64,000 bases of DNA. Origin: a candidate division FCPU426 bacterium (GTDB lineage Bacteria; Oederibacteriota; JAAXVQ01; JAUVAV01). Of the stretch, positions 15,240 to 52,135 are shown in pieces. Within the stretch, counting starts at the first letter, position 1. Each line of letters opens with the position of its first letter. The translations under genes were made by a program, and so were the position numbers. The stretch lies in contig JAUVAV010000005.1 of assembly GCA_030591525.1 (NCBI GenBank), forward strand, positions 1 to 64,000, in the 5' to 3' direction. The notes under the pieces are model-generated. The model was not told the origin of the DNA, did no database searches, and worked only from the letters and a program-made list of their open reading frames with translations.

Positions 15240-15255
15240 TTCCCCGATTCTAGTC

Positions 15256-15406
15256 TCGTGTTTCAAAAACACTTTGAATTTATGTTTTGTCATTCTGGCA
15301 TGCTTTTAGCCGGAATCCAGGGAATTCATCCGTAAAAATAATGTTTTTCTAGACCCCGGCTGAAGTCATGCCGGGGTGACATATTCATAGAATTTCAGAA
15401 ACACGA
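15256..15406. repeat. Imperfect inverted-repeat element (TCGTGTTTC ends)
   Basis: TCGTGTTTC at 15256-15264 and GAAACACGA at 15398-15406 are exact inverted ends. The arms continue imperfectly for about 60 bp (GAATTTATG..., GGCATG..., AGCCGG). The left arm recurs inverted at 48405-48462 with about 90 percent match. In both places a CTAG-type MITE is directly adjacent. Confidence 0.65.
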
Positions 15407-22385: not shown

Positions 22386-22507
22386 CTAGGAGTTTGAGCA
22401 ATTGAGAATTGAACAATAGAGCAATAGAAAAACTCAATTGCGGTCTATTTTCTATTGTTCAATTGCTCAGGAATTAAAAAAAACCGACTAACTGCTTAGG
22501 CGCCTAG
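22386..22507. repeat. CTAG-type MITE (copy f)
   Basis: It runs from CTAGGAGTTTGAGCAATTGA to GACTAACTGCTTAGGCGCCTAG. The inner pair CAATAGAGCAATAG / CTATTGTTCAATTG makes a second hairpin. The same interior occurs in the copy at 48463. It lies in the gap between the glycosyltransferase and aroB. Confidence 0.8.
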
Positions 22508-27382: not shown

Positions 27383-28489
27383 TTGACTTTGAAAATACAG
27401 CTCAAAAGCTTATTTTTAGAGGATGAGGGCGTTATGCTAAAAGCGCTTACACTTCTTTCTTTTATAGGGCTGTTGCTGGTCTGCTTTTTTACATACCGTC
27501 CCATGCCTTCATCTTCAAGACAGATGGTCATGTCAAGGCCGGTTCCATCTCAGATTCCCTTGTCAATGCTCAAACCGGCGGCTGAGCCGAGAGCGCTCTA
27601 TCTTTCCGGGGAGCCGGTGTTTCCGCCGACCTTAGCGGTTACTCCCATCCCCATGCCTACGCCGGCCGGAGGCGGCGTGCTGCGAAAAATAGCATTTACT
27701 TCCAACCGGGCCAATGGACGGCATTATCAAATTTACATAATGGACGCCAATGGTAAGCAGGTAGAGCGATTATTGGAATCCGAGTCTTTTGACCGGGATC
27801 CGCATTTTTCTTATGACGGCCAAAGCATCGCTTTTGCTTCTAATCGTTCCGGAACATACCAAATTTATGTGTTGGACTTGGCTACCCGAGCTGTGCGCCG
27901 GCTGACTTCGGGCACACAGGATAAAACCAACCCCTTTTGGAGTCCGGACGGAAGACAGTTGCTCTATACCTTACATGCCAAGGGTTCCTTCGAATTGGGT
28001 ATTATGAATGCGGATGGCAGCCAAGCCCGTCAGATTACAAACGCGTCTTTCGGCGACAGCCACGGATATGGATTTGCGCCCGACGGCCGCCGGATTTCGT
28101 TTGAATCAACCATGAACAACCGGAATGAAGTATTTATCATGAACCTCGAGAACATGAAGAGCCGAGTGCTCATTGAAACGGATGAACTTTCCTACCGTGG
28201 GGATCCGGTTTTTTCACCCACCGGCAACAAAATAGTGTTTTGTTCCAACACGCTGGACCGCAGAACCCGCCAACTTTATATTTATGACCTGGACTGGAAA
28301 AAATACTACCGCATTACGGACGATGCTTTGGATAAGGATGATCCTATTTTTTCTCCCGACGGCACCATGATTGCTTACGTGGCTCGCTGGCAAAACGCCT
28401 GGAATATTTTTATGGCGGATGCAGACGGCAAGTACGCCCGCAATCTTACTCGCAGCCATTATGATAACTTAGTACCCAGTTGGCGGTAA
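27383..28489 (+). CDS. TolB-like beta-propeller (PD40) membrane-anchored protein, paralogue of the first gene
   Basis: The ~369-residue protein starts at TTG 27383, because GGAGAGG lies 5 nt upstream and the ATG at 27335 is inside the -10 box; ATG 27434 is an alternative. It has a short N-terminal stretch (LTLKIQLKSLFLEDEG), a membrane helix (ALTLLSFIGLLLVCFF), a Pro/Ser-rich linker, and PD40 blades (RKIAFTSNRANGRHYQIYIM, NPFWSPDG, DDPIFSPDG). It matches the protein at 3-1328 through the helix, linker and whole propeller but lacks the twelve-residue repeats. It is predicted to be periplasmic and inner-membrane anchored. Ligand unknown. Confidence 0.82.
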   Translation: MTLKIQLKSLFLEDEGVMLKALTLLSFIGLLLVCFFTYRPMPSSSRQMVMSRPVPSQIPLSMLKPAAEPRALYLSGEPVFPPTLAVTPIPMPTPAGGGVLRKIAFTSNRANGRHYQIYIMDANGKQVERLLESESFDRDPHFSYDGQSIAFASNRSGTYQIYVLDLATRAVRRLTSGTQDKTNPFWSPDGRQLLYTLHAKGSFELGIMNADGSQARQITNASFGDSHGYGFAPDGRRISFESTMNNRNEVFIMNLENMKSRVLIETDELSYRGDPVFSPTGNKIVFCSNTLDRRTRQLYIYDLDWKKYYRITDDALDKDDPIFSPDGTMIAYVARWQNAWNIFMADADGKYARNLTRSHYDNLVPSWR

Positions 28490-39018: not shown

Positions 39019-39023
39019 AAACT

Positions 39024-39104
39024 AGGGGACATGGTTAACTATTTAACTATATTGTCAAAGTAGTAATGTTTTTTAATATAGTTAAATAGTTAACCATGTC
39101 CCCT
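39024..39104. repeat. Long REP-like hairpin with perfect 30-bp arms
   Basis: AGGGGACATGGTTAACTATT... at 39024-39053 is exactly inverted at 39075-39104, separated by 21 nt. It begins six bases after rnpB and could serve as its terminator. The GGGGACA head is shared with hairpins at 40157 and 51140. Confidence 0.85.
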
Positions 39105-39143
39105 ATATTTATACGGGTCGCTGAAATATTGGAGGATAATCAA

Positions 39144-40157
39144 ATGATTATTATAATGAAACCGAATGTTTCCCGGCAAGAAATCAAGGCCATGATAGAG
39201 CGGATAAAAAAGATGAAACTGGAACCCCATCTACTAAGAGGTACGGAGAGGAATGTTATTGCCGTAGTCGGCGATGAACGAAACCTGCAGCGCCAGCCTT
39301 TGGAAATTATGCCCGGCGTAGAGAGCGTGGTGGCCGTATTAAAGCCTTATAAATTGGCCAGCCGGGAGAGCAAACGCGAACGGACCGTAGTGAAGGCCGG
39401 TTCTCTTTCCATAGGCGGAGAGAAACTCGCAATTATTGCCGGACCGTGTACTGTGGAAAATCGCTCCATGCTGCTGCATACCGCCAAGGCGATCAAGCGG
39501 CTGGGTGCCGGAGGAATGCGCGGCGGGGCGTTCAAGCCGCGTACCAGCCCTTATGCTTTTCAAGGGTTGAAGAACCAGGGGCTTAAAATATTGGCCGAGG
39601 CCCGTCGCCAGAGCGGACTTCCGATCATAACCGAGGTGCTGGATCCGCGCGATGTTTCTGTCGTGGCCCGCTCGGCCGACATCCTGCAAATCGGCACCCG
39701 AAACATGCAAAACTATGAGCTCTTGAAAGCCGTGGGTCAACAGCGCAAGCCTATACTGCTCAAGCGGGGAATGGCCGCCGGCATAGATGAGCTGCTAATG
39801 TCAGCCGAGTATATCATGGCCCAGGGCAATTACCAGGTTATCCTGTGCGAACGCGGGATCCGCACCTTTAATGATTACAGCCGGAATACCCTGGATTTAA
39901 CCGTTATTCCGGCGCTTAAGGAAAGAACCCATTTGCCCGTGATAGTCGATCCCTCGCATGGGACCGGCAAGCGTGATTACGTGATTCCCATGTCCCGGGC
40001 GGCCGTGGCGGCCGGCGCGGACGGTCTGCTGCTGGAAGTCCATCCCCATCCGGAACGCGCCATGATAGACGGTCAACAGTCGCTTTCTTTTGAAGAGTTC
40101 GGGGAACTGATGGATGACTTGAAAAAGCTGGCGCCCATCGTGGGGAGAAACATGTAG
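39144..40157 (+). CDS. aroF: 3-deoxy-7-phosphoheptulonate (DAHP) synthase
   Basis: The 337-residue enzyme condenses PEP and erythrose-4-phosphate, the first shikimate step. I use ATG 39144 with GGAGGATAATCAA upstream; the ATG at 39096 lies inside the hairpin arm. A ferredoxin-like regulatory domain (residues ~1-70, [19 protein letters not shown]) is followed by the type I-beta barrel: [60 protein letters not shown]. The final TAG is the first base pair of a REP hairpin. A second copy of its last ~46 codons lies at 50995-51137. Confidence 0.95.
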
Positions 40158-40221
40158 TTCTGGGGACACCATACTTAATTCGATTTACAGAAGGTAAAAT
40201 TAAGTATGGTGTCCCCAGAAC
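40157..40221. repeat. REP-like hairpin with perfect 24-bp arms
   Basis: GTTCTGGGGACACCATAC... at 40157-40180 is exactly inverted at 40198-40221. The arm begins with the last base of the aroF stop codon. It may terminate aroF transcription. It shares a GGGGACA head with other hairpins here. Confidence 0.85.
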
Positions 40222-40338
40222 GGTCAAATAAATCTGTTAGGAGACGAACAGGGGGGAAAAGGCAATCAACGTCTTTGCCGGCCTGCCATGGGTGCTTACA
40301 ATCCGGTCGGTTTGTGACTGCCTGACGTGAAAATTTAA

Positions 40339-40560
40339 GAGGTTTTTTCATGTCTTCAAATTATAGCTTTGCTGGATGACAGCGAAATTGTAGAAAAGAT
40401 ACTTAAACATTTTAATCTCTGGATTGATTCTGTTCCGGATAGAACACGTGCCTCGCCAGAACCTGTTGCCCCAGATATTACATATGAACCGCTTTATGAT
40501 GATTTCCAACTCGATCCGGAAGATTTGGTAGCTGGGGATAGGAAAGAACTGTCTCCCTAA
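40339..40560 (+). pseudogene. C-terminal remnant of an IS91-like transposase
   Basis: Open from after the TAA at 40336-40338 to the TAA at 40558-40560. It reads IIALLDDSEIVEKILKHFNLW followed by an acidic tail. The pattern (I/L)xDPxVIxKILxHLGLW is the usual C-terminus of IS91-family Y2 transposases. No catalytic part remains, and no start codon with a binding site is seen. Confidence 0.6.
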
Positions 40561-40644
40561 CCCTGAAGAACCGTATGCGTTAATTGCGCTCGTACGGGTC
40601 TGTGGGGGCTTCAGGTGAGCAATCACCCGAGTCTACCCGGAGCA

Positions 40645-41145
40645 TTAAGCAGCTTTAAATTTCATGACACACTCGGTACCAATTTTAGCAAGTACATTTC
40701 TTTCTATTAGAACTAGCTTGACTTTTTCCGGAAGCATAAAAGTATTTATAATCTCTTCAACCATACCTGGAACAGGACATAAGGTACCTTCTAATTCTGC
40801 GGCCCCCACTCCTTTAGGACATAATTTACAAGTAGAGGATGTGATTTTCAATACCACGCATTCTTCTTCGGACACTATGTCATGCTTCAAAGCAATCGGT
40901 AACACCTGGTTCAACAATTTAAAAATATTTTTTATTTTCGCAATTAATGGATCACTTGATTTGAAAGAAGGCGTATGGTTTTCAGCCTTCATATATTCTG
41001 CAAGATATTTGCCTATTCTTCGGGAACCAATATTGACGGCTCCTTGATTAAGCAGTCGCAATTCATTTAAACCTGCTATGAAAGCAGCAAAAGCGACATT
41101 CCCAGCATCAAGTTGACGTTCCTTAATTTTATCTTTGAAACTCAT
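40645..41145 (-). CDS. V4R-like cysteine-containing protein (tentative)
   Basis: The 166-residue protein has a helical first half (AAFIAGLNELRLLNQGAVNIG) followed by a block resembling the end of V4R/4-vinyl-reductase domains: SSTCKLCPKG, then GTLCPVPGMVEEIIN and a final ERNVLAKIGTECVMKF. V4R domains bind small hydrophobic ligands or metals and often act as sensors. GAGGAG lies before the ATG. It follows a roadblock gene 54 bp upstream on the same strand, so the pair may be a sensor plus GTPase-regulator unit. The family call rests on motif resemblance only. Confidence 0.5.
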   Translation of the reverse strand: MSFKDKIKERQLDAGNVAFAAFIAGLNELRLLNQGAVNIGSRRIGKYLAEYMKAENHTPSFKSSDPLIAKIKNIFKLLNQVLPIALKHDIVSEEECVVLKITSSTCKLCPKGVGAAELEGTLCPVPGMVEEIINTFMLPEKVKLVLIERNVLAKIGTECVMKFKAA

Positions 41146-41199
41146 AATGAACTCCTCTCATTTATATTTTATATTTATTAAATAAAATAAAAATTGACG

Positions 41200-41565
41200 T
41201 TACATTTCAGTCAGTACTTTTATCAAACCTTTAATCGATTTTTTGGTTTCGATTCTTAATAGGCCTAAATTTGCTTCCGGTGAAGCTATTACTCCTAAAA
41301 TTGCCTCGCCAAAGTTAACAATGATAATAATTCCTTTACTGTATTCAAACATAGCCTGCCTTAATTCACCTTTATCTAAACGTGTTCCTACAACTTCGGC
41401 CGGACCAGTACTTCCAGCTAAAATCGCACCTATTTCTTCCACATCTCTTTTTACACTTTTTACAGCATTATGTATTATAAAACCCTCTTTTCCAACTAGA
41501 ATTGCACCAGTAACAGATTCTGAGTCAACCAAAGCATCCATAATTTCTTCTATAGAATTATTCAT
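41200..41565 (-). CDS. Roadblock/LC7 domain protein
   Basis: The ~121-residue protein starts at ATG 41565; the TTG three codons earlier abuts the AAGGAGGA box. It is a single roadblock fold: TGAILVGKEGFIIHN, then GAILAGSTGPAEVVG, ELRQAMFEYSKGIIIIVNF and a C-terminal helix KKSIKGLIKVL. It is expected to bind an MglA-like GTPase such as the one at 43946-44524, and is followed by the V4R-like gene. Confidence 0.85.
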   Translation of the reverse strand: MNNSIEEIMDALVDSESVTGAILVGKEGFIIHNAVKSVKRDVEEIGAILAGSTGPAEVVGTRLDKGELRQAMFEYSKGIIIIVNFGEAILGVIASPEANLGLLRIETKKSIKGLIKVLTEM

Positions 41566-41574
41566 CACATCCAA

Positions 41575-41958
41575 TCCTCCTTTTTAAAAATTTATTTAAA
41601 AAGCTGGATTCCCGCCTGTCCTGGATGGTTTAGTCCAGGGATAAGAGCATTCGGGAATGACAACCTAAAAAACCGACTAATTGCTCAGGCTCCCAGCGGA
41701 TGGGAAGCGAGACGAAATTTACCCCACGAAACGGCCACCAATTTTTTATACTATTTAAAGCATCGGTTTTTCTTTATAAAACTTTAGCAATCATTATATA
41801 ACATACACCAATTCATGATAAACATCAAGTGGAAAATTATACCGAAACCACCGCCCAACTTTGATTACCCTTAAACATCAACTATAACCGAGAATTTTCT
41901 TTCCCCTATAACCTCGGAGGCTTCTCTTTTTTTAGCTCTTTCTTTTTAGGAGTTGGGG
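41575..41958. other. 384-bp intergenic region with repeat remnants
   Basis: It contains a GGATTCCCGC...GCGGGAATGAC-type hairpin remnant (41610-41660, with the inner pair CCTGGA/TCCAGG) and a solo right end of the CTAG-type MITE (GACTAATTGCTCAGGCTCCCAG, ending 41695). The rest is AT-rich and shows no gene. Confidence 0.5.
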
Positions 41959-43113
41959 TTATATACCCCGCGTTTGTTGTCTAAGTAAAGTAGATACACC
42001 ATTCAAAACTTTTAAACTTGCTTCAGTATTCCCCCGGGAAAGCCAGATTTGAGATCGGGCTAACATTTTTGCAATGTCTGTGTTACCGGTATAGAGGTTT
42101 AAAAAAATATATTTAGTTATAATTCCTTCTAAATTATCAATCGGCTTTTTTCCTGCGGATATTTCTGTAATTAGTTGCTTGATTTTATTTTTATTAAATA
42201 CTTCAGTTGATAAATCGTTGTTATTCAGTTCTACAGTTGAGCTTGATTTGTCAAGTAGCGTAGAAACAATATTTTTATCACTATCCGTTTGCGACATAAT
42301 TTGAACAGCATCTCGGATTATTTTTTTATCTATATTTACTAAGCCGCGCTGTGAACTAATAGACATTGCTGTATGAGCTAATAAATTAATCCGCAGAGGT
42401 ACTCCGCGAGTTGCTTGATGTATAAGCGTTAAGGCATCGGGAGTGAATAGGGGACGTTCCTGACCAACGCGCGCTAATTGAAACGTGATATACTTAGAGG
42501 TCTCCTGGGAAGTCAGAGGCTTTAAAACGATACGTGCAGAAAGATATTTTAAAATTTCTTGAGATTCACTTGTTTTTTTAATATCTTCTGGAGAGCTCAT
42601 GAATATTGATGAAAATAGGTGCTGTTCTTTAATAAAAATATTTGCCGAAGCTCGCAAGCTTTCTAAAATATTTTTATGCTGAGCTAGAATAGAGTTGTCA
42701 AAAATCAAAACTATTTTTTTCCCTTTTTCTTTTAAGCTGGCCAATTTATTAATGAGATTTTCCCATGAGGAAAAAGTATGCTCCGGGGATATAATATTTG
42801 CAAGTAATTGGTGAAACCAATCGGGGCTTGGATTTACTGGTACCAGATTTATTCGTATAGAGATATAATCAGAAAAATTCTTTAGAGTATGATAAAGATA
42901 ATAACTTAGGGCGGTTTTTCCCAGCCCATCTTTTCCTGTCACTAAAATAAATGGGTTTTGCATATCTATAAAATGCCTGATAATTTGGATTTTCTTATAA
43001 AGATAGTCGGTAAGAAAATAAAAATCGGACGAATCTTGCTGCAAAGCAAAGTGAAAGGGGGACATTTCAAATTTGTAATAATTTCGATAAAAACCGCTAT
43101 TTTTGTAATACAA
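41959..43113 (-). CDS. ExeA-like AAA ATPase
   Basis: The 384-residue protein starts at TTG 43113 with GAGGT six bases upstream; ATG 43065 lacks a site. The N-terminus resembles the ExeA/GspA layout (FxxSPFHFALQQDSSDFYFL). Walker A GKDGLGKT lies at about residues 63-70 and Walker B-like KIVLIFDN at about 130. The arginine/sensor region reads LTSQETSKYITFQLARVG, then TRGVPLRINLLAHTAM, as in ExeA/TniB-type ATPases. A Thr/Ser-rich C-terminal extension of ~120 residues is unassigned. It is downstream of the MglA-DUF4388 genes on the same strand. Confidence 0.75.
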   Translation of the reverse strand: MYYKNSGFYRNYYKFEMSPFHFALQQDSSDFYFLTDYLYKKIQIIRHFIDMQNPFILVTGKDGLGKTALSYYLYHTLKNFSDYISIRINLVPVNPSPDWFHQLLANIISPEHTFSSWENLINKLASLKEKGKKIVLIFDNSILAQHKNILESLRASANIFIKEQHLFSSIFMSSPEDIKKTSESQEILKYLSARIVLKPLTSQETSKYITFQLARVGQERPLFTPDALTLIHQATRGVPLRINLLAHTAMSISSQRGLVNIDKKIIRDAVQIMSQTDSDKNIVSTLLDKSSSTVELNNNDLSTEVFNKNKIKQLITEISAGKKPIDNLEGIITKYIFLNLYTGNTDIAKMLARSQIWLSRGNTEASLKVLNGVSTLLRQQTRGI

Positions 43114-43213
43114 TTTTCTACCTCGAAATATATTTATAATTGAAAATGTGAAAATAATCCAATTATGCCCCTAACCCCGGAGTTTAAAAACAAGGGGATG
43201 TTTATTTAAATAA

Positions 43214-43930
43214 TCATGACTTCTCGCTGCCGATTATTTTATCCATACTTTCTGCGGACCGGGAGACAGTTAGAAATAATTGTCCCAATGATATGCTTTT
43301 ATCACAAACTACGATTAGAGTTAGATTTCCAGCCAAACGATGGCTCAGAATAATACTCGATCGAGTTTGAATCATAAATGATTCCATAGGATCATCTTCA
43401 ATATGGCTAGTGGCATTGCGGAGAAGTTCCAGTATAATCGCCAGGCTTTGATTTATATTTTCCGAGATTTTTCCACGTGCATGTTTTACTAAAGTTTTAG
43501 TAAAATGTGGATCAATAACACAAACCATAGTTATTAATTCGTTATTTTCTAATAATTTTACCGAAGAAATGTTGAAATAAGTTAATTGTTCTTTACTGAT
43601 TAATTTGTGTCTTTCACGTTGATGTTTTTCATCCAAAAGATGTACGCCCTCCATAATTAAGTTTTCTATTTTTTTATTTATATTTTTCGATTTATTAACC
43701 GGCTTTGATATCAATTCAAATTGTCCATGCGACCAATCCAGTAATTCATAAATAGCTTCTTCTCCTGCTATATTGTTTAACTGGGCATTGATTAAAATCC
43801 CATCTTTATAATACAATTCCGCTTTATCTTTATTATGATTAAGTTTAATAATGCTGCTTTTACGTTCTCTTGCGGGGAGCTGAAGAAGCTCAACTATGCT
43901 CATATCTTCAAGGTTGCCTGCTATACTCAT
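43214..43930 (-). CDS. DUF4388 (PATAN) protein with roadblock-like C-terminus
   Basis: The 238-residue protein starts with the DUF4388 hallmark GNLEDMSIVELLQLPARERKS-like opening (MSIAGNLEDMSIVELLQL), then AELYYKDGILINAQLN and GEEAIYELLDWSHGQFEL (to about residue 75). The C-terminal ~110 residues carry roadblock-like strands (ELITMVCVIDPHF; SHRLAGNLTLIVVCD). PATAN domains occur in two-component and GTPase signalling. It lies 15 bp after the MglA-like gene, so it is very likely a partner of that GTPase. Confidence 0.8.
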   Translation of the reverse strand: MSIAGNLEDMSIVELLQLPARERKSSIIKLNHNKDKAELYYKDGILINAQLNNIAGEEAIYELLDWSHGQFELISKPVNKSKNINKKIENLIMEGVHLLDEKHQRERHKLISKEQLTYFNISSVKLLENNELITMVCVIDPHFTKTLVKHARGKISENINQSLAIILELLRNATSHIEDDPMESFMIQTRSSIILSHRLAGNLTLIVVCDKSISLGQLFLTVSRSAESMDKIIGSEKS

Positions 43931-43945
43931 TTCTAATCCTTTTGA

Positions 43946-44524
43946 TTATTCTAGTTTCCTGATTACTAGTTTGGAAATATTTTTAATAGTTTGAAAAACC
44001 CCTTTGCCGGTTTTGGCTACCGCTTCAAAACTTTCAACTCCAAAATGGTTAATTTTTCTTTCTAGTATCGGAATGTCCAAAATATTTTTTAAGTCTCTTT
44101 TGTTGTATTGAATAATCCAGGGAATTTGAGTAATATTCACCCCTTGTGCAAGTAAATTATCTTTCATACTTGCCAGACTTTCAATATTAGCCTCGAATTG
44201 TTCAATTTGAGAATCAACAACAAAAATTATACCATCACAATTGCGTAAAACTAATTTACGACTGCTTTCATAATATGTTTGACCCGGAACAGTATAAAGT
44301 AAAAGGCGTATTTTAAATCCATGAACAAATCCCAGTTCCATGGGCAGAAAATCAAAAAAAAGAGTGCGCTCTTCTGGCGTATCTAAAGAGATCATTTCAC
44401 TGACCAGATTTTGCGGAACATTTTGGTAAATATATCTGAGATTAGTAGTTTTTCCACTTAATCCCGGACCATAATAAACGATTTTAATGTTAATCTCGTT
44501 ATTTATAGTATTGATCGTTGCCAT
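43946..44524 (-). CDS. MglA-like Ras-superfamily GTPase
   Basis: The 192-residue protein has G1 GPGLSGKTTN at about residues 19-28, the MglA-specific segment SLDTPEERTLFFDFLP, G3 reading TVPGQ in place of DxxGQ (a known MglA feature), and G4 NKRD at about 141-144. MglA GTPases set polarity in Myxococcus and related systems and are regulated by roadblock (MglB) proteins, two of which are encoded on either side. It is the core of the cluster 45930 to 41959. Whether it works in polarity, motility or another task cannot be seen. Confidence 0.9.
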   Translation of the reverse strand: MATINTINNEINIKIVYYGPGLSGKTTNLRYIYQNVPQNLVSEMISLDTPEERTLFFDFLPMELGFVHGFKIRLLLYTVPGQTYYESSRKLVLRNCDGIIFVVDSQIEQFEANIESLASMKDNLLAQGVNITQIPWIIQYNKRDLKNILDIPILERKINHFGVESFEAVAKTGKGVFQTIKNISKLVIRKLE

Positions 44525-44538
44525 GGAATTCTCATCTG

Positions 44539-45294
44539 CTATTCATTATCTCCGAATATATCATCAAGCAATGAAGCAGCGAAGTTTTTAAATGATTCAT
44601 TAGTAATTTCACTTTCAACGTTTTTAGGGGTAAGTGAAAAACTCTTTTGAGAAGTCCTTTCTTTTAATGAAATCGTTTCATCTGACTCGGAAATCCATTC
44701 TTTTTGGGGTAGAGGCGATTTTGCGGTATTAGCGGTCGTCGCTTCTTTTTCTAAATCGGTTTTTTTTATTTTATTATCAGATATTTCTTCTGTTTGAACA
44801 GGATGATTCACTTGCGCAGCAGTAACTTTTTTTACTGGTAACTGCTGTTTCTGAGTTTGATCTTGTGGTTTTATTTTACCGGTACCTTTAATTGGGGGCT
44901 GGTAGATTTCAAACAAATTTATAATAGCTTTACTATGATTTTGTGTTTGCAAACGAATTAATGCGGTTTTTTGTATTCCTTCAAAAACCACGATAAGCAT
45001 CATTTGCATTGCTATTAAAGAAATTTGGATATTGAGTTTTTGCCCTTGCTGAAAAAGGATGGAAAATTCTTTCTCGCCTAATAATCGCGCCACTTCTTTG
45101 GTTGCGGAAAACATGCCGGCAACGAGAGCACCCAAAGCTGTAAGATTGATGAAATTGCAATTTCCCGACCAGGTTACTATCTGACCATCTTCAGTAATTA
45201 AAACAGTACAGGTTGAATTAGTCTTTTCAACCAAACTTCCTAAGACACCTTGGATTTCACTCCGCTTAGCGTTAATGACATGTATTCCTTCCAT
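44539..45294 (-). CDS. Roadblock (MglB-like) protein with long disordered tail
   Basis: The ~251-residue protein starts at ATG 45294, with GGGGGAAATC upstream; TTG 45306 is less likely. Residues ~5-115 form a roadblock domain (CTVLITEDGQIVTWSG; ALVAGMFSATKEVARLLGE; SLIAMQMMLIVVF). The rest is Lys/Gln/Ser/Thr-rich, probably disordered, ending in a short conserved-looking helix ASLLDDIFGD. It lies 14 bp upstream of the MglA gene, the normal mglB-mglA order. Confidence 0.82.
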   Translation of the reverse strand: MEGIHVINAKRSEIQGVLGSLVEKTNSTCTVLITEDGQIVTWSGNCNFINLTALGALVAGMFSATKEVARLLGEKEFSILFQQGQKLNIQISLIAMQMMLIVVFEGIQKTALIRLQTQNHSKAIINLFEIYQPPIKGTGKIKPQDQTQKQQLPVKKVTAAQVNHPVQTEEISDNKIKKTDLEKEATTANTAKSPLPQKEWISESDETISLKERTSQKSFSLTPKNVESEITNESFKNFAASLLDDIFGDNE

Positions 45295-45321
45295 GATTTC
45301 CCCCAAACATGTAATCTGGAA

Positions 45322-45930
45322 TCAAGTAAATTTTAATAAAAATACACAATTCGTGTTTTTAAGCAATGGTTGTACGATTCGAGGTTCAATCCCTTCTTCG
45401 GCTAAGTATTCATAAGCTATGAAGTGTTTTTCATCAAAAGATTTGCAGCCCAAAGTAACCATTTCAATAGGCTTTCCGGATATGGAAATCTTACTTGTAG
45501 CAATAGAGCGAATGGGTTGATATAAAAGACAAAAAGGGTTACTGGCACTACCACAACCTATTTTTAATTTTTTATTGATTGTTGAAGGCTTATTAAATTC
45601 ATCCATTATTTCATTGTATTCATTGGGAATACCCTTCCATAAATTAAAATAGTTTTTAATGAAATTTTCATTCGGGCAAGCAGGGGTAGTGATTATATTA
45701 TTTTCTTGCTTTTCAAATTTATCTTCAAAAAGATTTAAGATAGTATCGCCTTCTTCTAGAGCTTTCCAAAAGAAGTTTTTGTCTTGGAAATCTTGGCGAG
45801 GTAAATTTTCACTGAAGGCAATCGCCCGTCGAACTAATTGACGCACTGCTAAAGGAGCGCCTAAATTATTTTTTAAATCACATAATAGCTCGAGAAAAAA
45901 AACATATATAATATCTATCTTTTTTTTCAT
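45322..45930 (-). CDS. Uncharacterised cysteine-containing protein heading the MglA cluster
   Basis: The ~202-residue protein starts at ATG 45930 with AAGGTGAG upstream; GTG 45939 overlaps that box. I do not recognise the family. It is helical for the first ~100 residues, then has TTPACPNENFI, KIGCGSASNPFCLLYQPI and TLGCKS, ending NTNCVFLLKF. The spaced cysteines and ending loosely recall the V4R-like protein at 40645. It is 27 bp before the roadblock gene and so probably the first gene of the operon. A ligand- or metal-binding sensor is a guess. Confidence 0.6.
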   Translation of the reverse strand: MKKKIDIIYVFFLELLCDLKNNLGAPLAVRQLVRRAIAFSENLPRQDFQDKNFFWKALEEGDTILNLFEDKFEKQENNIITTPACPNENFIKNYFNLWKGIPNEYNEIMDEFNKPSTINKKLKIGCGSASNPFCLLYQPIRSIATSKISISGKPIEMVTLGCKSFDEKHFIAYEYLAEEGIEPRIVQPLLKNTNCVFLLKFT

Positions 45931-45955
45931 GGTACTCACCTTGATTAGTCTACTA

Positions 45956-46031
45956 TTAAGAGACGTTGGTTCTTACAATGCATTATTAACAGAAAAATAA
46001 GTTATGCAACGTAAGAACCAACGTCCCTTAA
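45956..46031. repeat. REP-like hairpin, 21-bp arms
   Basis: TTAAGAGACGTTGGTTCTTAC (45956-45976) pairs with 46011-46031 with one mismatch across 34 nt. Read on the other strand it has a GGGAC head like other hairpins here. It lies just upstream of the MglA cluster. Confidence 0.75.
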
Positions 46032-46641
46032 ATCATCATTATAAGTCAATCACAGAATGTCATCCGATACACTCCAGATGATGGGCTGATGAGTAATTGC
46101 ATTTCATAGAAAATGTAACAAAATCTGTAACAGTGTGTCAATGCTTAAAAATCGGGCCCTAAAGGCCATATGTGGGTTTTCAAATTAAACTGATAAGATA
46201 GCGGGTGATGTTTTCAGAATAAGTTAACAAACAGATATAAAATATCAGATTATTTAAGACCCCCTTAAGAGGCTTTTTTATTTTAAGAAAAAATAGGGCA
46301 AAGGGTATGGAAACATCCCTTGCCCCGAAAAATGGATAATAAAACCCCTAACCAAATGATACCTTGATACCAAGATACTATAAATTACTGTTTCCGTCAA
46401 GGAAATAATACGTAAAGGCCGTGCGTATGAGTGGCTCCGACCTGTAAATAAAAGTAGACATTAAAAACATAAAGTTGTAAAATTACGGCAATTAGTTAGT
46501 TTCTGTTGCGGAAAAGGGAGTTGAGCTCGTCATACCGGCGGAAGCCCAGGGCTAAAATCATGCCGGAATGACGATGATTCGAAAGAGCATAACTGCCTTT
46601 CCGCAACCGGAACTAGTTAACTAATTCCAAGGAGGCAGAAA
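46032..46641. other. 610-bp intergenic region upstream of the MglA cluster and a porin gene
   Basis: No gene is seen. A hairpin at 46296-46325 (GGGCAAAGGG / CCCTTGCCC with one bulge) is followed on the minus strand by a T-run, so it may be a terminator or leader structure toward the MglA operon. An inverted-repeat element lies at 46492-46625 (listed). Confidence 0.5.
46492..46625. repeat. Inverted-repeat element (TAGTTAGTTTC ends)
   Basis: TAGTTAGTTTCTGTTGCGGAAAAGG at the left matches the inverted CCTTTCCGCAACCGGAACTAGTTAACTA at the right imperfectly. The interior has a GTCATACCGGCGG / CATGCCGGAATGAC pair. It directly precedes the ribosome binding site of the porin gene. Confidence 0.6.
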
Positions 46642-47643
46642 ATGAGGAGATTGAAAAAGCAGGGTGTAGTAGTTGGTTGTTTGGGCATAGCGGTTGCTTG
46701 TCTACTTAGTTTTACTCAAGCAGCTCATGCCGATGAGTACCCGGCGGTTAATGTTCACGGTTTTGTGCAGAGTTATTTTGCCTGGTCTGACAGTGCGGGG
46801 AATGACACTTATGACATACGGCGGGCTTTTATTATTTTAAAGGGAGAAGTGGCCGAGAATCTTGCCTGTAATTTTCAAATTGACGGGGGCGCTCCTGTTA
46901 ATCCCCTGCGTTCTGCCTGTTTGAAATATACCCGGGTTCCCTGGGCCAATATCACTGTTGGCCAGTTCAAGATACCTTTTAGTGAAGAATACCTGACTTC
47001 CTCTGCCGGCTTGGATACTATTCGGCGGGCTAATGTAGTAAGGAGTCTCTCGTACGATCGCGACATAGGAGGTATGCTTTCCGGCAAGGTGTTGGCGGAT
47101 AAACTTTGCTATGCTCTCGGCGGCTTCAATGGCAGCGGGAAAAATACTGCCGACAACAATCAAACTCAGGATTTGATCGGCCGGCTAGTGGTTTCGCCTT
47201 TTAAAGGGAGCGGGAACAGTCTGGACGGCCTTTCTCTGGGAGGTTCCTGCCAGATAGGCCAACAGCCTGTGAGCGGAAACAACGAAGGGATCAGAAGCCG
47301 CATAGGGGCATTGGCTAAATATACGTATGCCAAGCTTTTTAAACTACAGAATGAATATATTTTTCAGAAATATGAGCAAACGGATGGCAGTGAGAAAGAA
47401 TCAATGGGTTTTTATTCTTTAATGACGTGTAAATTTATTCCCGAATTACAGAGTATATTGAAATACGAGGCATATGATCCGAATTGTGCCGCCGGACAAG
47501 ATAGAGAAGGTATTATTACTTTAGGATTAGACTGGTTCTTTGCCAAACACGCCAAGTTGGAGGCGAATTACCGGATAATCTACGAGGAACTAAATGACAA
47601 AATCAATAAAGAGTGCTTATTACAGATGCAGTTTAAATTCTAA
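46642..47643 (+). CDS. OprO/OprP-type porin
   Basis: The 333-residue protein has a signal peptide (...CLLSFTQAAHA, cleavage near 30). The barrel starts VNVHGFVQSYFAWSD, DIRRAFIILKGEVAENLACNFQID and ITVGQFKIPFSEEYLTSS, the recurrent pattern of phosphate-selective porin O/P family members. It ends LLQMQFKF with a terminal Phe. It is the only plus-strand intact gene inside the AT-rich segment. AAGGAGG precedes the ATG. Anion specificity cannot be judged from the sequence alone. Confidence 0.85.
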   Translation: MRRLKKQGVVVGCLGIAVACLLSFTQAAHADEYPAVNVHGFVQSYFAWSDSAGNDTYDIRRAFIILKGEVAENLACNFQIDGGAPVNPLRSACLKYTRVPWANITVGQFKIPFSEEYLTSSAGLDTIRRANVVRSLSYDRDIGGMLSGKVLADKLCYALGGFNGSGKNTADNNQTQDLIGRLVVSPFKGSGNSLDGLSLGGSCQIGQQPVSGNNEGIRSRIGALAKYTYAKLFKLQNEYIFQKYEQTDGSEKESMGFYSLMTCKFIPELQSILKYEAYDPNCAAGQDREGIITLGLDWFFAKHAKLEANYRIIYEELNDKINKECLLQMQFKF

Positions 47644-47668
47644 ATACAAGAATCAGACACTTACACCG

Positions 47669-47856
47669 CGCGGAGAGTGTGCCAGCGCCAACTTTTACAC
47701 CCTGGTGGAAACCGCCAAGGCCAACAGCCTGGAAGCGTACCACTATCTAATTATCTTTTTTCTCGTCCGCCTTCCGCCGTTACGCCGGAAGAATTGCGCT
47801 GGTTATTGCCTGCCCAAGCCAAAGCCGAGGATCTGCTGTCGCTTGCAAATGGATAA
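47669..47856 (+). pseudogene. Frameshifted C-terminal remnant of an IS66-family transposase
   Basis: Frame one reads ASANFYTLVETAKANSLEAYHYL. After a shift near 47750 the next frame reads LFSRPPSAVTPEELRWLLP and continues to the TAA at 47854-47856. Together they reproduce the usual IS66 TnpC ending (ASANLYSLIETAKANGLEPY..YL, LP). The transposase core is absent. Confidence 0.75.
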
Positions 47857-47929
47857 TTACAGCCGCTGCCTTTCAGGTGGCTATCGGTAGTTGATTTGAC
47901 GCTTACGTTCAATTCTTAAAAAGTGAATG

Positions 47930-48289
47930 TTATATATCTTTCAACTTTTCAAGCTGCTCTAATGTTTTTTCAGCAACGATTCTTTCTTTATTAAAATGTT
48001 TTAACATCCTCTCCAAACATTTGTCTTTTTCCTTATCATCACCAAGATATTTTGCGCAATCTTGCATATATTTTTTCGTCATCTCCACATTCGCTTTGAT
48101 ATCTTCGGGTATTTTCTCACTATCATGTCTCACTGCTTCCACGGGGCATACACTATGACAGGTTCCGCATCGGATACATTCCTCCATATTCATCTTTGCT
48201 TTCTGATTTTCCACTGATATTGCATTTACCGGGCACCCCTCTACACAAATTCCACAACCGCTACACCGTTCCACATCAATCCAGGGCAT
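47930..48289 (-). CDS. 2[4Fe-4S] ferredoxin with helical C-terminal extension
   Basis: The 119-residue protein has two classic cluster motifs in the first half: CSGCGICVEGCPVNAI (residues ~9-24) and CIRCGTCHSVCPVEAV (~38-53). The last ~65 residues are charged and helical, with two further Cys. It is an electron carrier for anaerobic redox enzymes; no partner oxidoreductase is adjacent. AAGGAGGTATTAA precedes the ATG. A second, shorter ferredoxin is encoded at 50063-50173. Confidence 0.92.
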   Translation of the reverse strand: MPWIDVERCSGCGICVEGCPVNAISVENQKAKMNMEECIRCGTCHSVCPVEAVRHDSEKIPEDIKANVEMTKKYMQDCAKYLGDDKEKDKCLERMLKHFNKERIVAEKTLEQLEKLKDI

Positions 48290-48404
48290 TTAATACCTCC
48301 TTATGGAGCCCCCCGGGCAAGCCCGTGGTACCCCTTTTGATCTTGCGTTGTACGCCCGATTGGCAAGGCAACATCCCGCGAAGCGTCAAGACGCATTCAT
48401 CCCC

Positions 48405-48462
48405 ATTCCGGCTAAAAGCATGCCGGAATGACAAAACATAAATTCAAAGTACTTATGAAACA
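48405..48462. repeat. Half copy of the TCGTGTTTC-type element
   Basis: The stretch GGCTAAAAGCATGCCGGAATG...GAAACAC is the reverse complement of the left arm at 15258-15315 with a few changes. It abuts the CTAG-type MITE at 48463, as its relative does at 15409. The remainder of the gap 48290-48404 shows no gene. Confidence 0.65.
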
Positions 48463-48619
48463 CTAGAAGCCTGAGCAATTAGTCTGATTTTTTTAATTCC
48501 TGAGCAATAGAACAATAGAAAATAGACCGCAATTGAGTTTTTCTATTGCTCGATTGTTCAATTCTCAATTGCTCTGGAGTTTGAGCAATTAGTCTATGAC
48601 TAATTGCTCAAACTCCTAG
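48463..48619. repeat. CTAG-type MITE (copy g)
   Basis: It runs from CTAGAAGCCTGAGCAATTAG to GACTAATTGCTCAAACTCCTAG. The interior pair CAATAGAACAATAGAAAATAG / CTATTGCTCGATTG matches copy f (22386). It lies inside the AT-rich island, so this family was active there after or with island arrival. Confidence 0.85.
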
Positions 48620-48640
48620 TAGGGAGCTGAAACGCGGTAA

Positions 48641-49273
48641 CTACTTTTTTTGCTCTTTCACAAATAAAAGGGGAAAAATAATATCACTTAAACAACAGGG
48701 TATCCATACTGCAAAGAAAAGAAACAAAAAAATCACAACATATACGAACCAATTCAGAGCCCCCCCGCCTATAGCCATAATAATATGAAAGAGTGATGCC
48801 CATGTGCTTAATAACACATGCCCGGCGTGTGGGAATTTTGTAGTCGGTCTAAAACCGGCTAGGAGTACACCTACAATAGCCAAAGGGTTGACCAGCCACC
48901 ACTTCTCGATAAAACCTAGATGAAGTCCTTTATTAGGCATTTTTAGCATTACTTCGCCTAAATAAGGAATAATCGAATCACTTATAGTAGCGATGCCGAT
49001 AGAACCTATGTAACCGATGATTAGTAAAATCCAAAGATTACATTTACCGCTTATGCATTTACCGCTTATGCGCTCACACGTGTGAAGTTTATACATAGAG
49101 GCGGTAACCAGCGCACTCAAAACAACGTGAATTGGATGAAGGACATAAAATATGTTATAGGAAAGATCGAAAGGCAATTTTTGGAAAAGGGCTATGATTA
49201 TGATGCCGGTAATTGCTCCAAAAATCGTAAAAGGAGCATGAATTTTTAATTCTTTTGAAATTTGCTTAAACAT
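48641..49273 (-). CDS. Polytopic membrane protein of unknown function
   Basis: The 210-residue protein has about six hydrophobic helices. I do not recognise the family. Notable residues are paired histidines near or in helices (HPIHVVLSAL at ~46-55; HAGHVLLSTWASLFHI at ~150-165) and Cys pairs (CERISGKCISGKC; IPCCLSD), which could hold a metal or heme. The duplicated GKCISGKC reflects a small in-frame repeat (GGTAAATGC/ATAAGC, 49044-49068). It lies 12 bp downstream of the YggS-like gene and in the same strand group as the ferredoxin. Confidence 0.6.
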   Translation of the reverse strand: MFKQISKELKIHAPFTIFGAITGIIIIALFQKLPFDLSYNIFYVLHPIHVVLSALVTASMYKLHTCERISGKCISGKCNLWILLIIGYIGSIGIATISDSIIPYLGEVMLKMPNKGLHLGFIEKWWLVNPLAIVGVLLAGFRPTTKFPHAGHVLLSTWASLFHIIMAIGGGALNWFVYVVIFLFLFFAVWIPCCLSDIIFPLLFVKEQKK

Positions 49274-49285
49274 TTTTTACCTTTT

Positions 49286-49972
49286 TTACGTTTTTAAATC
49301 GCAACTTCTCTCTCCGAATATAGCGGCTCCCAATCTTACAATATTCGCGCCTTCCTCAATGGCTATCCTGTAGGAATTGGACATGCCCATAGAAAGATAT
49401 TTCAAATCTATATTGGGAATACCAACACTTTTTAATTTATCAAAATATTCTTTTATCTTTCTAAAATATGGTCTCACCTTCTCCGGCTCGCCCTCTCTTG
49501 GCCCCATCGTCATTAGCCCTTCTAATCTTAAATAATCTAATTTCGAAATGCGCTTAGCTAACTTTTCAATAGTTTCATATTCCGGCTTGATACCTGATTT
49601 TGTTATTTCACTACCAATATTTATTTCTATAAAAACAGAAATTCTTTTTTTTATTCTCTCCGCTCTTTTATTTATAGCTTCCGCAAGTTCGGCTGAATCA
49701 ACCGTCTGAATACAATCAAATGTTTTTAACGCTTTATTAATCTTATTTGTCTGCAAAGAACCGATCATATGCCATCCAATTTTTCTTGCTTTTTCTCCTA
49801 CCGCTGCATACATTTTTTCCGCTTCCTGCACATAATTTTCTCCAATGATGTCCGCTCCAACGGAAATCGCCTCTCTTATCTCCTCGTTTGTCTTCATCTT
49901 GGCGGCCAAAACGATTTTTACGTAATCAGGAATTTCTCCCCTGATCTGTAAATATCTTTCTCTTATACTCAT
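49286..49972 (-). CDS. YggS/PLPBP family pyridoxal-phosphate homeostasis protein
   Basis: The ~228-residue single-domain TIM-barrel protein binds PLP and buffers vitamin B6. The PLP lysine lies in YVKIVLAAKMKTNEEI. Conserved segments GENYVQEAEKMYAAV, WHMIGSLQTNK, LEGLMTMGP and LSMGMSNSYRIAIEEGANIVRLGAAIFG are all present. The start is ATG 49972 after a G-run; the frame extends upstream to 50014 but only through the ribosome binding site and non-conserved residues. Confidence 0.92.
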   Translation of the reverse strand: MSIRERYLQIRGEIPDYVKIVLAAKMKTNEEIREAISVGADIIGENYVQEAEKMYAAVGEKARKIGWHMIGSLQTNKINKALKTFDCIQTVDSAELAEAINKRAERIKKRISVFIEINIGSEITKSGIKPEYETIEKLAKRISKLDYLRLEGLMTMGPREGEPEKVRPYFRKIKEYFDKLKSVGIPNIDLKYLSMGMSNSYRIAIEEGANIVRLGAAIFGERSCDLKT

Positions 49973-50062
49973 CATCCCCCCCCAAAAAAGTAGTAAGGCT
50001 TCCCCCCCCACCAAATTGTCCTCTCTAAAAGCAGACGTGTCCCGCCATATGGCTCCGGCATT

Positions 50063-50173
50063 TTACAAATCGCTTTTTATGCTTCGAGAGAGAGCTTCTC
50101 CAGCTGCCGCCACCGGGCAAACATCCATACAAGCAGCACATCCCACACATTTTATTTCATCCACCTTAAACAC
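50063..50173 (-). CDS. 36-residue mini-ferredoxin (single [4Fe-4S] motif)
   Basis: The GTG start at 50171-50173 has AGGG four bases upstream. The peptide is MFKVDEIKCVGCAACMDVCPVA followed by ~14 residues and a TAA. The motif CxxCxxCxxxCP can hold one 4Fe-4S cluster. The small size may mean a remnant of a longer ferredoxin or a genuine short carrier. It lies between the methyltransferase and YggS-like genes on the same strand, with 32 bp to the methyltransferase stop. Confidence 0.5.
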   Translation of the reverse strand: MFKVDEIKCVGCAACMDVCPVAAAGEALSRSIKSDL

Positions 50174-50205
50174 TTAACCCTGCTTTCAAAAGACGTTAAA
50201 TAACT

Positions 50206-50766
50206 TTAAGTCTTTTTTCTGAAATTTAAGACATATCCTTTGTTGTAGTAATCATCATGCAAAAGTTCTTTTAAAATTTTATCCCACAAATAAAAATCGC
50301 ATTCTTCTATTTCTCTTTTTACATCAGCCATTTCCATTTCAGCCAATTCCATTAAAGGATAATCATTCTTGTAATGCTTGGGGTAGATAGACAAAATCCC
50401 TTGCTGCCTCAGCACCCTGTGAATTTCCTGATAAATTATCCCTCTGTTTTTTTCATAGTGAATAACATCATAAAGCAAAGCAACATCTACCGACTTATCT
50501 TCTAAAGGTACCTTGGTATCTCCACTTATTAACTCTATGTTTTTTAAGCCAAATCGTTTTCCCGTTTCTTCTAATTCACGCAAAGCATTCTTATCTTTAT
50601 CAAAACCATATACTTTACCTTCTGCACCCACTACTTTTGCCGCAGGAATTGTGTAGTGGCCTTTTCCGCAACCAAAGTCTAAAACAGTTTGATCCTTTTG
50701 GACACCAATTTCTCGTAAAAACTCCACCCCGTCTTTTTCTATCCACTTTCTAACGCTAGTATTCAT
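50206..50766 (-). CDS. Class I SAM-dependent methyltransferase
   Basis: The 186-residue protein has motif I VLDFGCGKGHYTIP at about residues 28-41, the acidic motif II VYGFDKDKNAL, then VDVALLYDVIHY and a LSIYPKHY strand. It resembles ubiE/arsM-like small-molecule methyltransferases. It is the first gene of the minus-strand group toward 47930. Its ferredoxin neighbours suggest an anaerobic metabolite, which is inference. Confidence 0.85.
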   Translation of the reverse strand: MNTSVRKWIEKDGVEFLREIGVQKDQTVLDFGCGKGHYTIPAAKVVGAEGKVYGFDKDKNALRELEETGKRFGLKNIELISGDTKVPLEDKSVDVALLYDVIHYEKNRGIIYQEIHRVLRQQGILSIYPKHYKNDYPLMELAEMEMADVKREIEECDFYLWDKILKELLHDDYYNKGYVLNFRKKT

Positions 50767-50850
50767 TTTTTGTATTTTATCACTTTTTTATTTTCCCCTT
50801 ATATTATCTATGGAATGGGGGGGCGGTGTCAACTTTGTAAACTTAGCTGT

Positions 50851-50994
50851 TCAATCTAGCCAAGGGCCTTCCAGCCCTTTTTTATTCGCCAATCTTTTAC
50901 CTGATATTGCCGCCTTGCTGAACCCCATCCTACTCATCCCTAAATGACGTCCGATATCAGCCCCGCTTATTCCCAATTCATGGTATCCTCGGAA
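50851..50994 (-). pseudogene. C-terminal fragment of a REP-associated tyrosine transposase (RAYT)
   Basis: The minus-strand frame reads YHELGISGADIGRHLGMSRMGFSKAAISGKRL and stops at 50851. The DnaA-like helix-turn-helix with GxSGxxIGRxLG(M/V)S is typical of the C-terminus of IS200/RAYT-type Y1 transposases. The upstream part is missing: the frame runs into the antisense of the aroF fragment. The fragment is a likely source relic of the REP-like hairpins in this window. Confidence 0.65.
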
Positions 50995-51137
50995 CTCCGG
51001 ATGGTCTGCTGCTGGAAGTCCATCCCCATCCAGAACGCGCCATGGTGGACGGCCACCAGTCGCTATCCTTTGAAGAGTTCGGGGAACTGATGGATGATTT
51101 GAAAAAGCTGGCGCCCATAGTGGGGAGAAGTATGTAA
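50995..51137 (+). pseudogene. Duplicated 3' fragment of aroF
   Basis: About 140 bp from GGATGGTCTGCTG to the TAA at 51135-51137 match 40019-40157 with about 13 differences, most of them synonymous. It encodes [20 protein letters not shown]...VGRSM in place of ...MIDGQQS...VGRNM. There is no start and no upstream aroF sequence. A GGGGAC-AAAC-GTCCCC mini-hairpin follows at 51140-51155, where intact aroF has its REP hairpin. Confidence 0.9.
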
Positions 51138-51193
51138 CCGGGGACAAACGTCCCCTGCTCACAAATCAGGTTTTGTAAAATTTATTTAAGGAG

Positions 51194-51784
51194 TCAGTCA
51201 TCCGGATTTGCTGGCAGTGAGTTGGCGGAGGTCCACGTTAGGTCCCATCTCCAGGCTTGGGGATTGTTGCCAACCTGCAAAACCTTTATATCCTTCAGGC
51301 CTATCATTTCTCCCACACCCAACAAATAACCACTTAAGTATTCGCGCATGTTGGAAGGATATTCCGGATAATTGCACAGCATAAAACACGCATGGTCCGA
51401 ACCGACGTTTTCCATACGAGCATCGCCGGTGGAGTAAAAAAGCCGCCACAATTGGGCCACGCGCTTAAAGACGAACTGCGGGGTGGGGATGCGAATGAAA
51501 ATATTGTAATAGCGGGGTAATCCTTCCCCGGCCATAACGCGTCCCAGCTCATATAAAGCTTGCTTGAATTCGCCGGGAAAAAGCGCCCGGGCAGCTACAT
51601 AAAGCAGGTTTCCTTCATCCGCAAAGTCGACAGGCACCCAGGAAAACGCCAAAGGAGGATTTTCCCATGTTTTTCGAGTCGCGGGAGGCAGGTTCTCGGA
51701 AAATATCCGCTCGAATTCAGGCCCTCGGTTTTGAATCAATTTCCTAAGGACAAGGATTCCTGCGCCCTTAACACGGTGTTGCAT
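51194..51784 (-). CDS. DUF2378-like protein (tentative)
   Basis: The ~196-residue soluble protein starts at ATG 51784, six bases after AGGAGG; the ATG at 51790 abuts the box. It opens RVKGAGILVLRKLIQNRGPEFERI and continues with SWVPVDFADEGNLLYVAARAL, ALYELGRVMAGEGL, FVFKRVAQLWRLFYSTGD and YLSGYLLGVGEMIGLKDIKVLQVG. This resembles the DUF2378/TIGR02265 proteins abundant in Myxococcota, which are related to heme-NO-binding-like folds. Function unknown. It is a single gene on the minus strand, divergent from recX. Confidence 0.5.
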   Translation of the reverse strand: MQHRVKGAGILVLRKLIQNRGPEFERIFSENLPPATRKTWENPPLAFSWVPVDFADEGNLLYVAARALFPGEFKQALYELGRVMAGEGLPRYYNIFIRIPTPQFVFKRVAQLWRLFYSTGDARMENVGSDHACFMLCNYPEYPSNMREYLSGYLLGVGEMIGLKDIKVLQVGNNPQAWRWDLTWTSANSLPANPDD

Positions 51785-51790
51785 ATGCAT

Positions 51791-52135
51791 CCTCCTGCGG
51801 CAGCGAATACTTACAGTCCGGAAGAATATGTTGAAATTTATCCAGCCTATGTGCCGGTATTAGCACCTTAAAGCGCGGTGGACAGAAATTGTGTTTAGTG
51901 ACCAAACACATATATCACAAAGTGAGGGGGATGTAAAACTATTTTGGCTTTGCTGGGGGAAGTCCAGAAGGTCCTCTGCTACTATGATTTCAAGTATTAC
52001 ATGCTTATAATTTGGCATAATTGCAAATTTATGTTATAAAATAATACTCGCATGCAGAGTTGCTATTATGATAACCGGGTGCCCCGCTAATCGGTTTTTT
52101 CTTAAGCGGCTGGTGGAGCGTATGGGGAGACGGTC
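51791..52135. other. 345-bp region upstream of recX
   Basis: Only short ORFs without motifs are present. A good promoter lies at 52012-52040 (listed). An AAGTGAGGGGGATGTAAAAC stretch near 51917 could be a translation signal for a small lost gene, but no frame follows. Confidence 0.4.
52012..52040 (+). promoter_or_regulatory. Predicted promoter for the recX-alaS group
   Basis: TTGGCA at 52012-52017, 17-nt spacer, TATAAA at 52035-52040, about 90 nt before the recX start. Confidence 0.65.

Follow-up and report, generated by a model that had tools for sequence, protein, structure and literature searches.

Group 1 MglA proteins are defined, after Wuichet and Sogaard-Andersen (PMC4316618), by an arginine next to the threonine of the G2 motif and by the sequence TVPGQ in G3. 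With MglB they form the polarity module of Myxococcus xanthus and Thermus thermophilus, a Ras-like switch of the type that determines which end of a motile bacterium is its front and which its back. MglA and MglB genes near a gene for a PATAN (DUF4388) protein, Group 1 included, were described by Makarova in 2006 and by Wuichet and Sogaard-Andersen in 2014 (PMC4316618); the MglA/MglB-PATAN pairing is therefore already known. Here we analyze a 64,000-nucleotide stretch of a candidate division FCPU426 bacterium (contig JAUVAV010000005.1, positions 1–64,000; hereafter the window), in which seven open reading frames (ORFs) at 40645–45939 lie on the minus strand, as the original prediction for this DNA had described. 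In order of transcription they encode an orphan protein, an MglB-type roadblock protein, MglA, a PATAN-roadblock protein, an ExeA-like ATPase, a second, stand-alone roadblock protein, and a small protein with four conserved cysteines. The switch itself is of a known kind; its pairing with a sensor-like protein is the new part. The earlier view that no described system resembles the cluster was too strong, given the neighborhoods reported in 2006 and 2014.

The window shares with the M. xanthus and T. thermophilus module an MglA that aligns over its full length, the G2 arginine, TVPGQ, and an adjacent MglB gene. It differs from that module in having a PATAN-roadblock gene in the operon, an extra roadblock protein and a four-cysteine protein, and a long MglB tail; it is also part of an insertion, and the close relatives of its lineage have no MglA. 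For the MglA/MglB-PATAN neighborhoods, the two papers report occasional proximity, and the available text makes no mention of companions like the second roadblock and four-cysteine proteins of the window. Asgard and eukaryotic TRAPP and Ragulator parts (PMC10933270) offer another likeness, in that the window clusters a small GTPase, a roadblock protein, and a four-cysteine protein with a possible TRAPPC3/V4R fold; the second roadblock protein matches structures 7f8m and, weakly, 7yh1. Unlike that system, however, the GTPase is MglA rather than Rab or Rag, longin is absent from the cluster, and the fold is putative. In the Asgard archaeon MK-D1, small GTPase genes generally stand outside operons with roadblock, longin, and TRAPPC3 genes (PMC10933270). 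Actinobacterial conservons (CvnA-D) also join a small GTPase to an MglB-type roadblock protein, and the second roadblock protein of the window matches CvnB5 (3leq). The cluster falls outside this Group 2 system: 40645–45939 contains no histidine kinase gene and no CvnC, and the G3 motif is TVPGQ, not GTPGQ, which places the GTPase in Group 1 by motif.

The MglA/MglB pair and its PATAN partner

Family scans of the window's proteins with Pfam and NCBIfam assigned the product of 43946–44524 (minus strand) to the Ras/Arf-type GTPases. It aligns end to end (residues 1–191) with M. xanthus MglA (6hjh; phmmer, E = 1.1e-66) and matches T. thermophilus MglA (3t12) at E = 1.9e-63. The P-loop GPGLSGKT and the motif NKRD fit the Group 1 patterns GxxxxGK[T/S] and [NT]KxD. 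In the alignment with M. xanthus MglA, EERTLFF places an arginine beside the G2 threonine and YTVPGQ occupies G3. The gene for the roadblock protein (44539–45306, minus strand; Robl_LC7) lies 14 nt upstream of mglA, and its product matches M. xanthus MglB (6h5b) at E = 2.8e-14 by phmmer; its score against the Thermus MglB equivalog of NCBIfam, 39.5, is under the cut-off of 200. On sequence grounds we consider the two a genuine Group 1 MglA/MglB pair, which agrees with the MglA-roadblock switch originally predicted. The MglB-type frame likely starts at the ATG at 45294. Its low-complexity tail of ~110 amino acids ends in a short acidic/hydrophobic motif, LLDDIFGDNE, and a WOR-3 MglB ends in DFDRLFGN; both ends may act like the MglB C-terminal helix.

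The gene downstream of mglA (43214–43930, minus strand) encodes a 238-amino-acid protein that matches PF14332, which we take to be the PATAN domain, at 72.7 bits against a gathering score of 25 (E = 3.5e-20). Its C-terminal half resembles a roadblock domain weakly (profile comparison, E = 3e-4, probability 38–39%), and a homologue in another genome (L169, 6195–6998) contains both DUF4388 and a Robl_LC7 domain that is over the Pfam cut-off. The DUF4388-roadblock architecture that had been proposed thus holds, with its roadblock half weak in the window itself. The gaps from the orphan gene through the PATAN gene (45322/44539, 44539/43946, and 43946/43214) are 14–27 nt each, and these four genes form a tight, operon-like unit.

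A genome scan for MglA yielded 61 loci, whose neighbors we recorded within 5 kb. Roadblock genes, PATAN genes, or both accompany MglA in 25 of these loci (PATAN only, 15; roadblock only, 7; both, 3), so that PATAN is present in 18 of the 61. In a WOR-3 bacterium (L017, 2028–8588), genes for roadblock, PATAN-roadblock, MglB, and MglA proteins fall within 6.6 kb. Other products of that locus, identified by eye, are a HAMP-like membrane protein and two periplasmic-binding-like proteins, which may represent a different kind of sensor input. In two distant genomes of the window's own phylum (G001 and G002; L173 and L174), a PATAN gene is followed consecutively by genes for two small, probable membrane proteins, for MglA, and for roadblock proteins. 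On contig 35 of the window's genome (L178, 6062–8274), a PATAN gene is followed by genes for two small, probably membrane proteins of similar length, and MglA is absent; the comparison hints at a native PATAN unit to which MglA was added or from which it was lost. Desulfobacterales-type loci (L032–L053) keep the order TPR-MglA-PATAN-PilZ, with TPR and PilZ identified by eye.

The second roadblock protein and the four-cysteine family

The second roadblock gene (41200–41574, minus strand) encodes 124 amino acids that match Robl_LC7 at E = 1.4e-12, as originally predicted. Its top PDB matches are 7f8m (a Robl_LC7 protein, E = 1.4e-9), 3leq, and 7yh1. The next gene, 54 nt downstream (40645–41145, minus strand), encodes a 166-amino-acid protein without a match in Pfam or NCBIfam, a possible ligand or zinc sensor of the V4R/TRAPPC3 fold. 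Its family was not found in the other 44 searched genomes of the window's phylum, and is present in two of 395 genomes (G288 and G354) of the phylum of Desulfosudis oleivorans (G083, L048). Every sequence that covers them has four cysteines in the pattern C-x2-CP-x-G-x-G ... C ... C.

In the distant genome G288 (L169), a PATAN-roadblock gene, a roadblock gene, and a homologue of the four-cysteine gene (E = 3.2e-24) lie in the same order as in the window, followed at the contig end by the start of another roadblock-like frame. This locus is the only conserved tie found that joins the second half of the cluster to the first. Searches of six genomes of the class of G288 found no further homologues. 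In G354 the homologue is broken across two contig ends, one of which also encodes a true V4R protein at a distance of ~2.2 kb.

V4R and TRAPPC3 are structurally akin to H-NOX and CesD/BcsD, and their four cysteines hold zinc (PMC10933270). As marks of the V4R/TRAPPC3 fold we took N-terminal helices, a four-stranded sheet, and four cysteines that tether the sheet to a helix. The single-sequence model of the four-cysteine protein is not to be relied on because its predicted local distance difference test score (pLDDT) is 43 and its predicted template modeling score (pTM) is 0.30. Nevertheless, each of the first 14 PDB matches of this model in Foldseek belonged to the TRAPPC3/TRAPP core, to H-NOX, or to CesD/BcsD, although no match was significant (best E = 0.085). 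A comparably poor model of the orphan protein gave scattered fold matches. These matches are suggestive of a V4R/TRAPPC3-like fold in the four-cysteine protein. The V4R-like character claimed for it earlier thus survives at the level of a putative fold and fails at the level of the Pfam family: membership in PF02830 was rejected because the protein has no match to it and a profile comparison with a true V4R protein gave nothing.

The orphan and four-cysteine proteins had been described as two cysteine-rich sensors. Both do carry cysteines, and both are only modestly rich in them because the counts are 6 in 205 amino acids and 5 in 166. Comparison of the two found no relationship. We rejected a viral or plasmid origin for them, as neither has relatives in IMG/VR and the four-cysteine protein has none in plasmids.

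Proposed mechanism and competing explanations

We propose that an acquired Group 1 MglA/MglB switch and its PATAN-roadblock partner operate with a sensor pair, the second roadblock protein and a protein of V4R/TRAPPC3 fold, and act on type IV pili; we regard the chances of this proposal as evenly balanced. GTP-bound MglA would be the active state. The MglB dimer would stimulate GTP hydrolysis by MglA's own arginine finger, and its C-terminal tail may assist nucleotide exchange. It would fall to the PATAN-roadblock protein to dock active MglA, directly or by means of its roadblock domain, at the motor of the type IV pili, and the switch would thereby set where or whether pili form. The second roadblock and four-cysteine proteins would provide a joint input, in which binding of a ligand or metal may alter the nucleotide cycle of MglA or PATAN docking. 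The ATPase and the orphan protein would stand outside this mechanism. We infer the interactions, the direction of signaling, the ligand, an output at the pili, and the fold that the four-cysteine protein adopts. By analogy, pilus control would be the likeliest output because the window's genome contains a pilin-like gene along with PilB- and PilT-type ATPases (PilB at C17, 15810–16955), PilM, PilN, and PilO, because MglA has a stimulating effect on the type IV pili of M. xanthus (PMC7519303, abstract), and because PATAN domains of Synechocystis bind PilB (PMC10519157).

Several points weigh against this proposal. MglA modules govern targets besides pili too (PMC4316618), and the interactions among the cluster's proteins are predicted ones. 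The second roadblock gene and its four-cysteine neighbor, set apart from the MglA operon by ~400 nt and by the ATPase gene, may constitute a unit of their own. The G288 contig stops before any MglA could appear, and in G354 the few kb visible around the homologue hold no roadblock gene. The best fold match of the poor model (pLDDT 43, E = 0.085) has a TM score of 0.34, and PF02830 finds no match in the four-cysteine protein up to E = 10 or in its homologue up to E = 1.

One rival explanation is that the locus consists of two unrelated modules, an ordinary MglB-MglA-PATAN operon and a self-contained roadblock/four-cysteine pair with a stray ATPase, joined only by an insertion site that accumulates foreign genes. 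The ATPase (41959–43113, minus strand) matches AAA_22 and, at E = 1.3e-23, the XrtA/PEP-CTERM ATPase family TIGR03015, for which its 83.8 bits are under the curated cut-off of 324.5; its C-terminal 100 amino acids are unique. Of 45 genomes of the window's phylum, 38 encode a homologue, with identities no higher than 28%, and only three of these hold this MglA. Across the 61 MglA loci, no match to a hidden Markov model built from the phylum's ATPases was better than E = 0.019. Adjoining no other MglA found there and being ordinary in the phylum, the ATPase was rejected as a part of the MglA module, which fits two unrelated modules. The ATPase gene follows the PATAN gene after about 100 nt and is separated from the second roadblock gene by about 385 nt of non-coding DNA with one copy of a dispersed repeat (41590–41700). 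The site is moreover a hotspot, since relatives have other cargo there, and parts of the insert differ in GC content. This explanation is nevertheless opposed by G288, where contiguity of the PATAN-roadblock, roadblock, and four-cysteine genes connects the PATAN gene, a member of the first operon, with the second pair, and by the shared strand and low GC (about 30–40%) of all seven genes. We consider two unrelated modules doubtful, with a substantial residual chance.

According to the original prediction, the orphan and four-cysteine proteins sense a small molecule, MglA relays the signal, and the machine that is driven in response is the ExeA-like ATPase. All the genes do lie on one strand in a single 5.3-kb stretch. 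However, neither the ATPase nor the orphan protein has a conserved tie to MglA, and the contrast between an ATPase in 38 of 45 phylum genomes and an MglA in three leaves a GTPase relay driving the ATPase unsupported. The orphan protein (45322–45939, minus strand; 205 amino acids), encoded by the first gene of the operon, matches nothing in Pfam, NCBIfam, or PHROG. Searches of the 45 phylum genomes, of 48 genomes with MglA loci, and of 147 genomes from the L017 phylum confirmed no homologue; one marginal match reached E = 8.5e-4. With no credible homologue, a model pLDDT of 39, and scattered fold matches, we rejected it as a sensor family. Conserved co-occurrence, proposed earlier as a check on the whole cluster, applies to the PATAN-roadblock, roadblock, and four-cysteine genes in G288 and to MglA with roadblock and PATAN genes in the window's phylum and in WOR-3; it does not extend to the ATPase or the orphan. 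We judge this relay the least probable of the explanations. It is also very improbable that the region is a functionless, decaying passenger: foreign composition, absence from close relatives, and an inserted repeat are consistent with decay, but none of the seven frames is disrupted and MglA retains its full set of catalytic motifs.

On a bolder reading, the second roadblock protein and a four-cysteine protein of TRAPPC3/V4R fold would be a bacterial TRAPP-like, ligand- or zinc-gated regulator (a guanine nucleotide exchange factor or a cofactor of GTPase activation) of the clustered Ras-like GTPase. We consider this unlikely; if correct, prokaryotes would have an equivalent of the combined folds by which eukaryotes activate Rab GTPases. 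If the family has this fold and acts on MglA, the time of origin of regulation by a GTPase, roadblock/longin, and TRAPPC3 would become testable in small, soluble bacterial proteins. In either case, the analysis singles out a small uncharacterized four-cysteine family that occurs beside PATAN and roadblock genes, and a complete MglA switch, most likely transferred, in a bacterium with type IV pili whose close relatives lack MglA.

The insertion site

The cluster lies in a region inserted between aroF and recX-alaS (40158–52135), the latter two genes having been identified by eye. Its low-GC part spans about 40.3–51.0 kb, and the island has about 33% GC against about 50%; the suspected island is thus borne out by composition, with boundaries set by synteny. 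On the left is aroF (DAHP synthase; 39096–40157, plus strand). On the right is a second copy of its 3' end (50988–51146, plus strand; residues 305–353), with 86% amino acid identity and 89% nucleotide identity over 151 nt. The distance from aroF to recX and alaS is 12 kb in the window, compared with 0.17–0.3 kb in three relatives (G016, G018, and G012) and within 1.5 kb in two others (G013 and G015), and all five lack the MglA cluster at this site. MglA was not found in the seven other genomes of the window's order. Identity to the closest MglA found is 53%, and in a tree the window sequence forms a long branch without a supported sister. Because of this absence, distance, and lack of a sister, the cluster was likely acquired by transfer.

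Relatives carry different cargo after aroF, which marks the site as a hotspot. In G017, of the same genus (L154, contig 83, 3295–6340), aroF is followed by the mercury methylation genes hgcA and hgcB, both over NCBIfam cut-offs, with ACR3 and ArsR. In G013 (contig 174, L157, 7859–9157), an MT-A70-like methylase and a possible nuclease, identified by eye, lie between aroF and recX.

The dispersed repeat between the ATPase and second roadblock genes, which resembles miniature inverted-repeat transposable elements or repetitive extragenic palindromic (REP) sequences, is common to the insertion and host DNA (15254–15316, 22396–22507, 41639–41696, 46550–46572, and 48405–48620). Perfect or near-perfect REP-like palindromes around aroF (39023–39105 and 40157–40221) and just upstream of the orphan gene (45956–46031) are candidate boundary elements. 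A 198-amino-acid protein with a TIGR02265 match under the cut-off (51197–51790, minus strand) adjoins the displaced aroF end. Elsewhere in the window, 497–1324 and 27655–28485 form an 830-nt direct repeat of 70% identity, probably paralogous genes.

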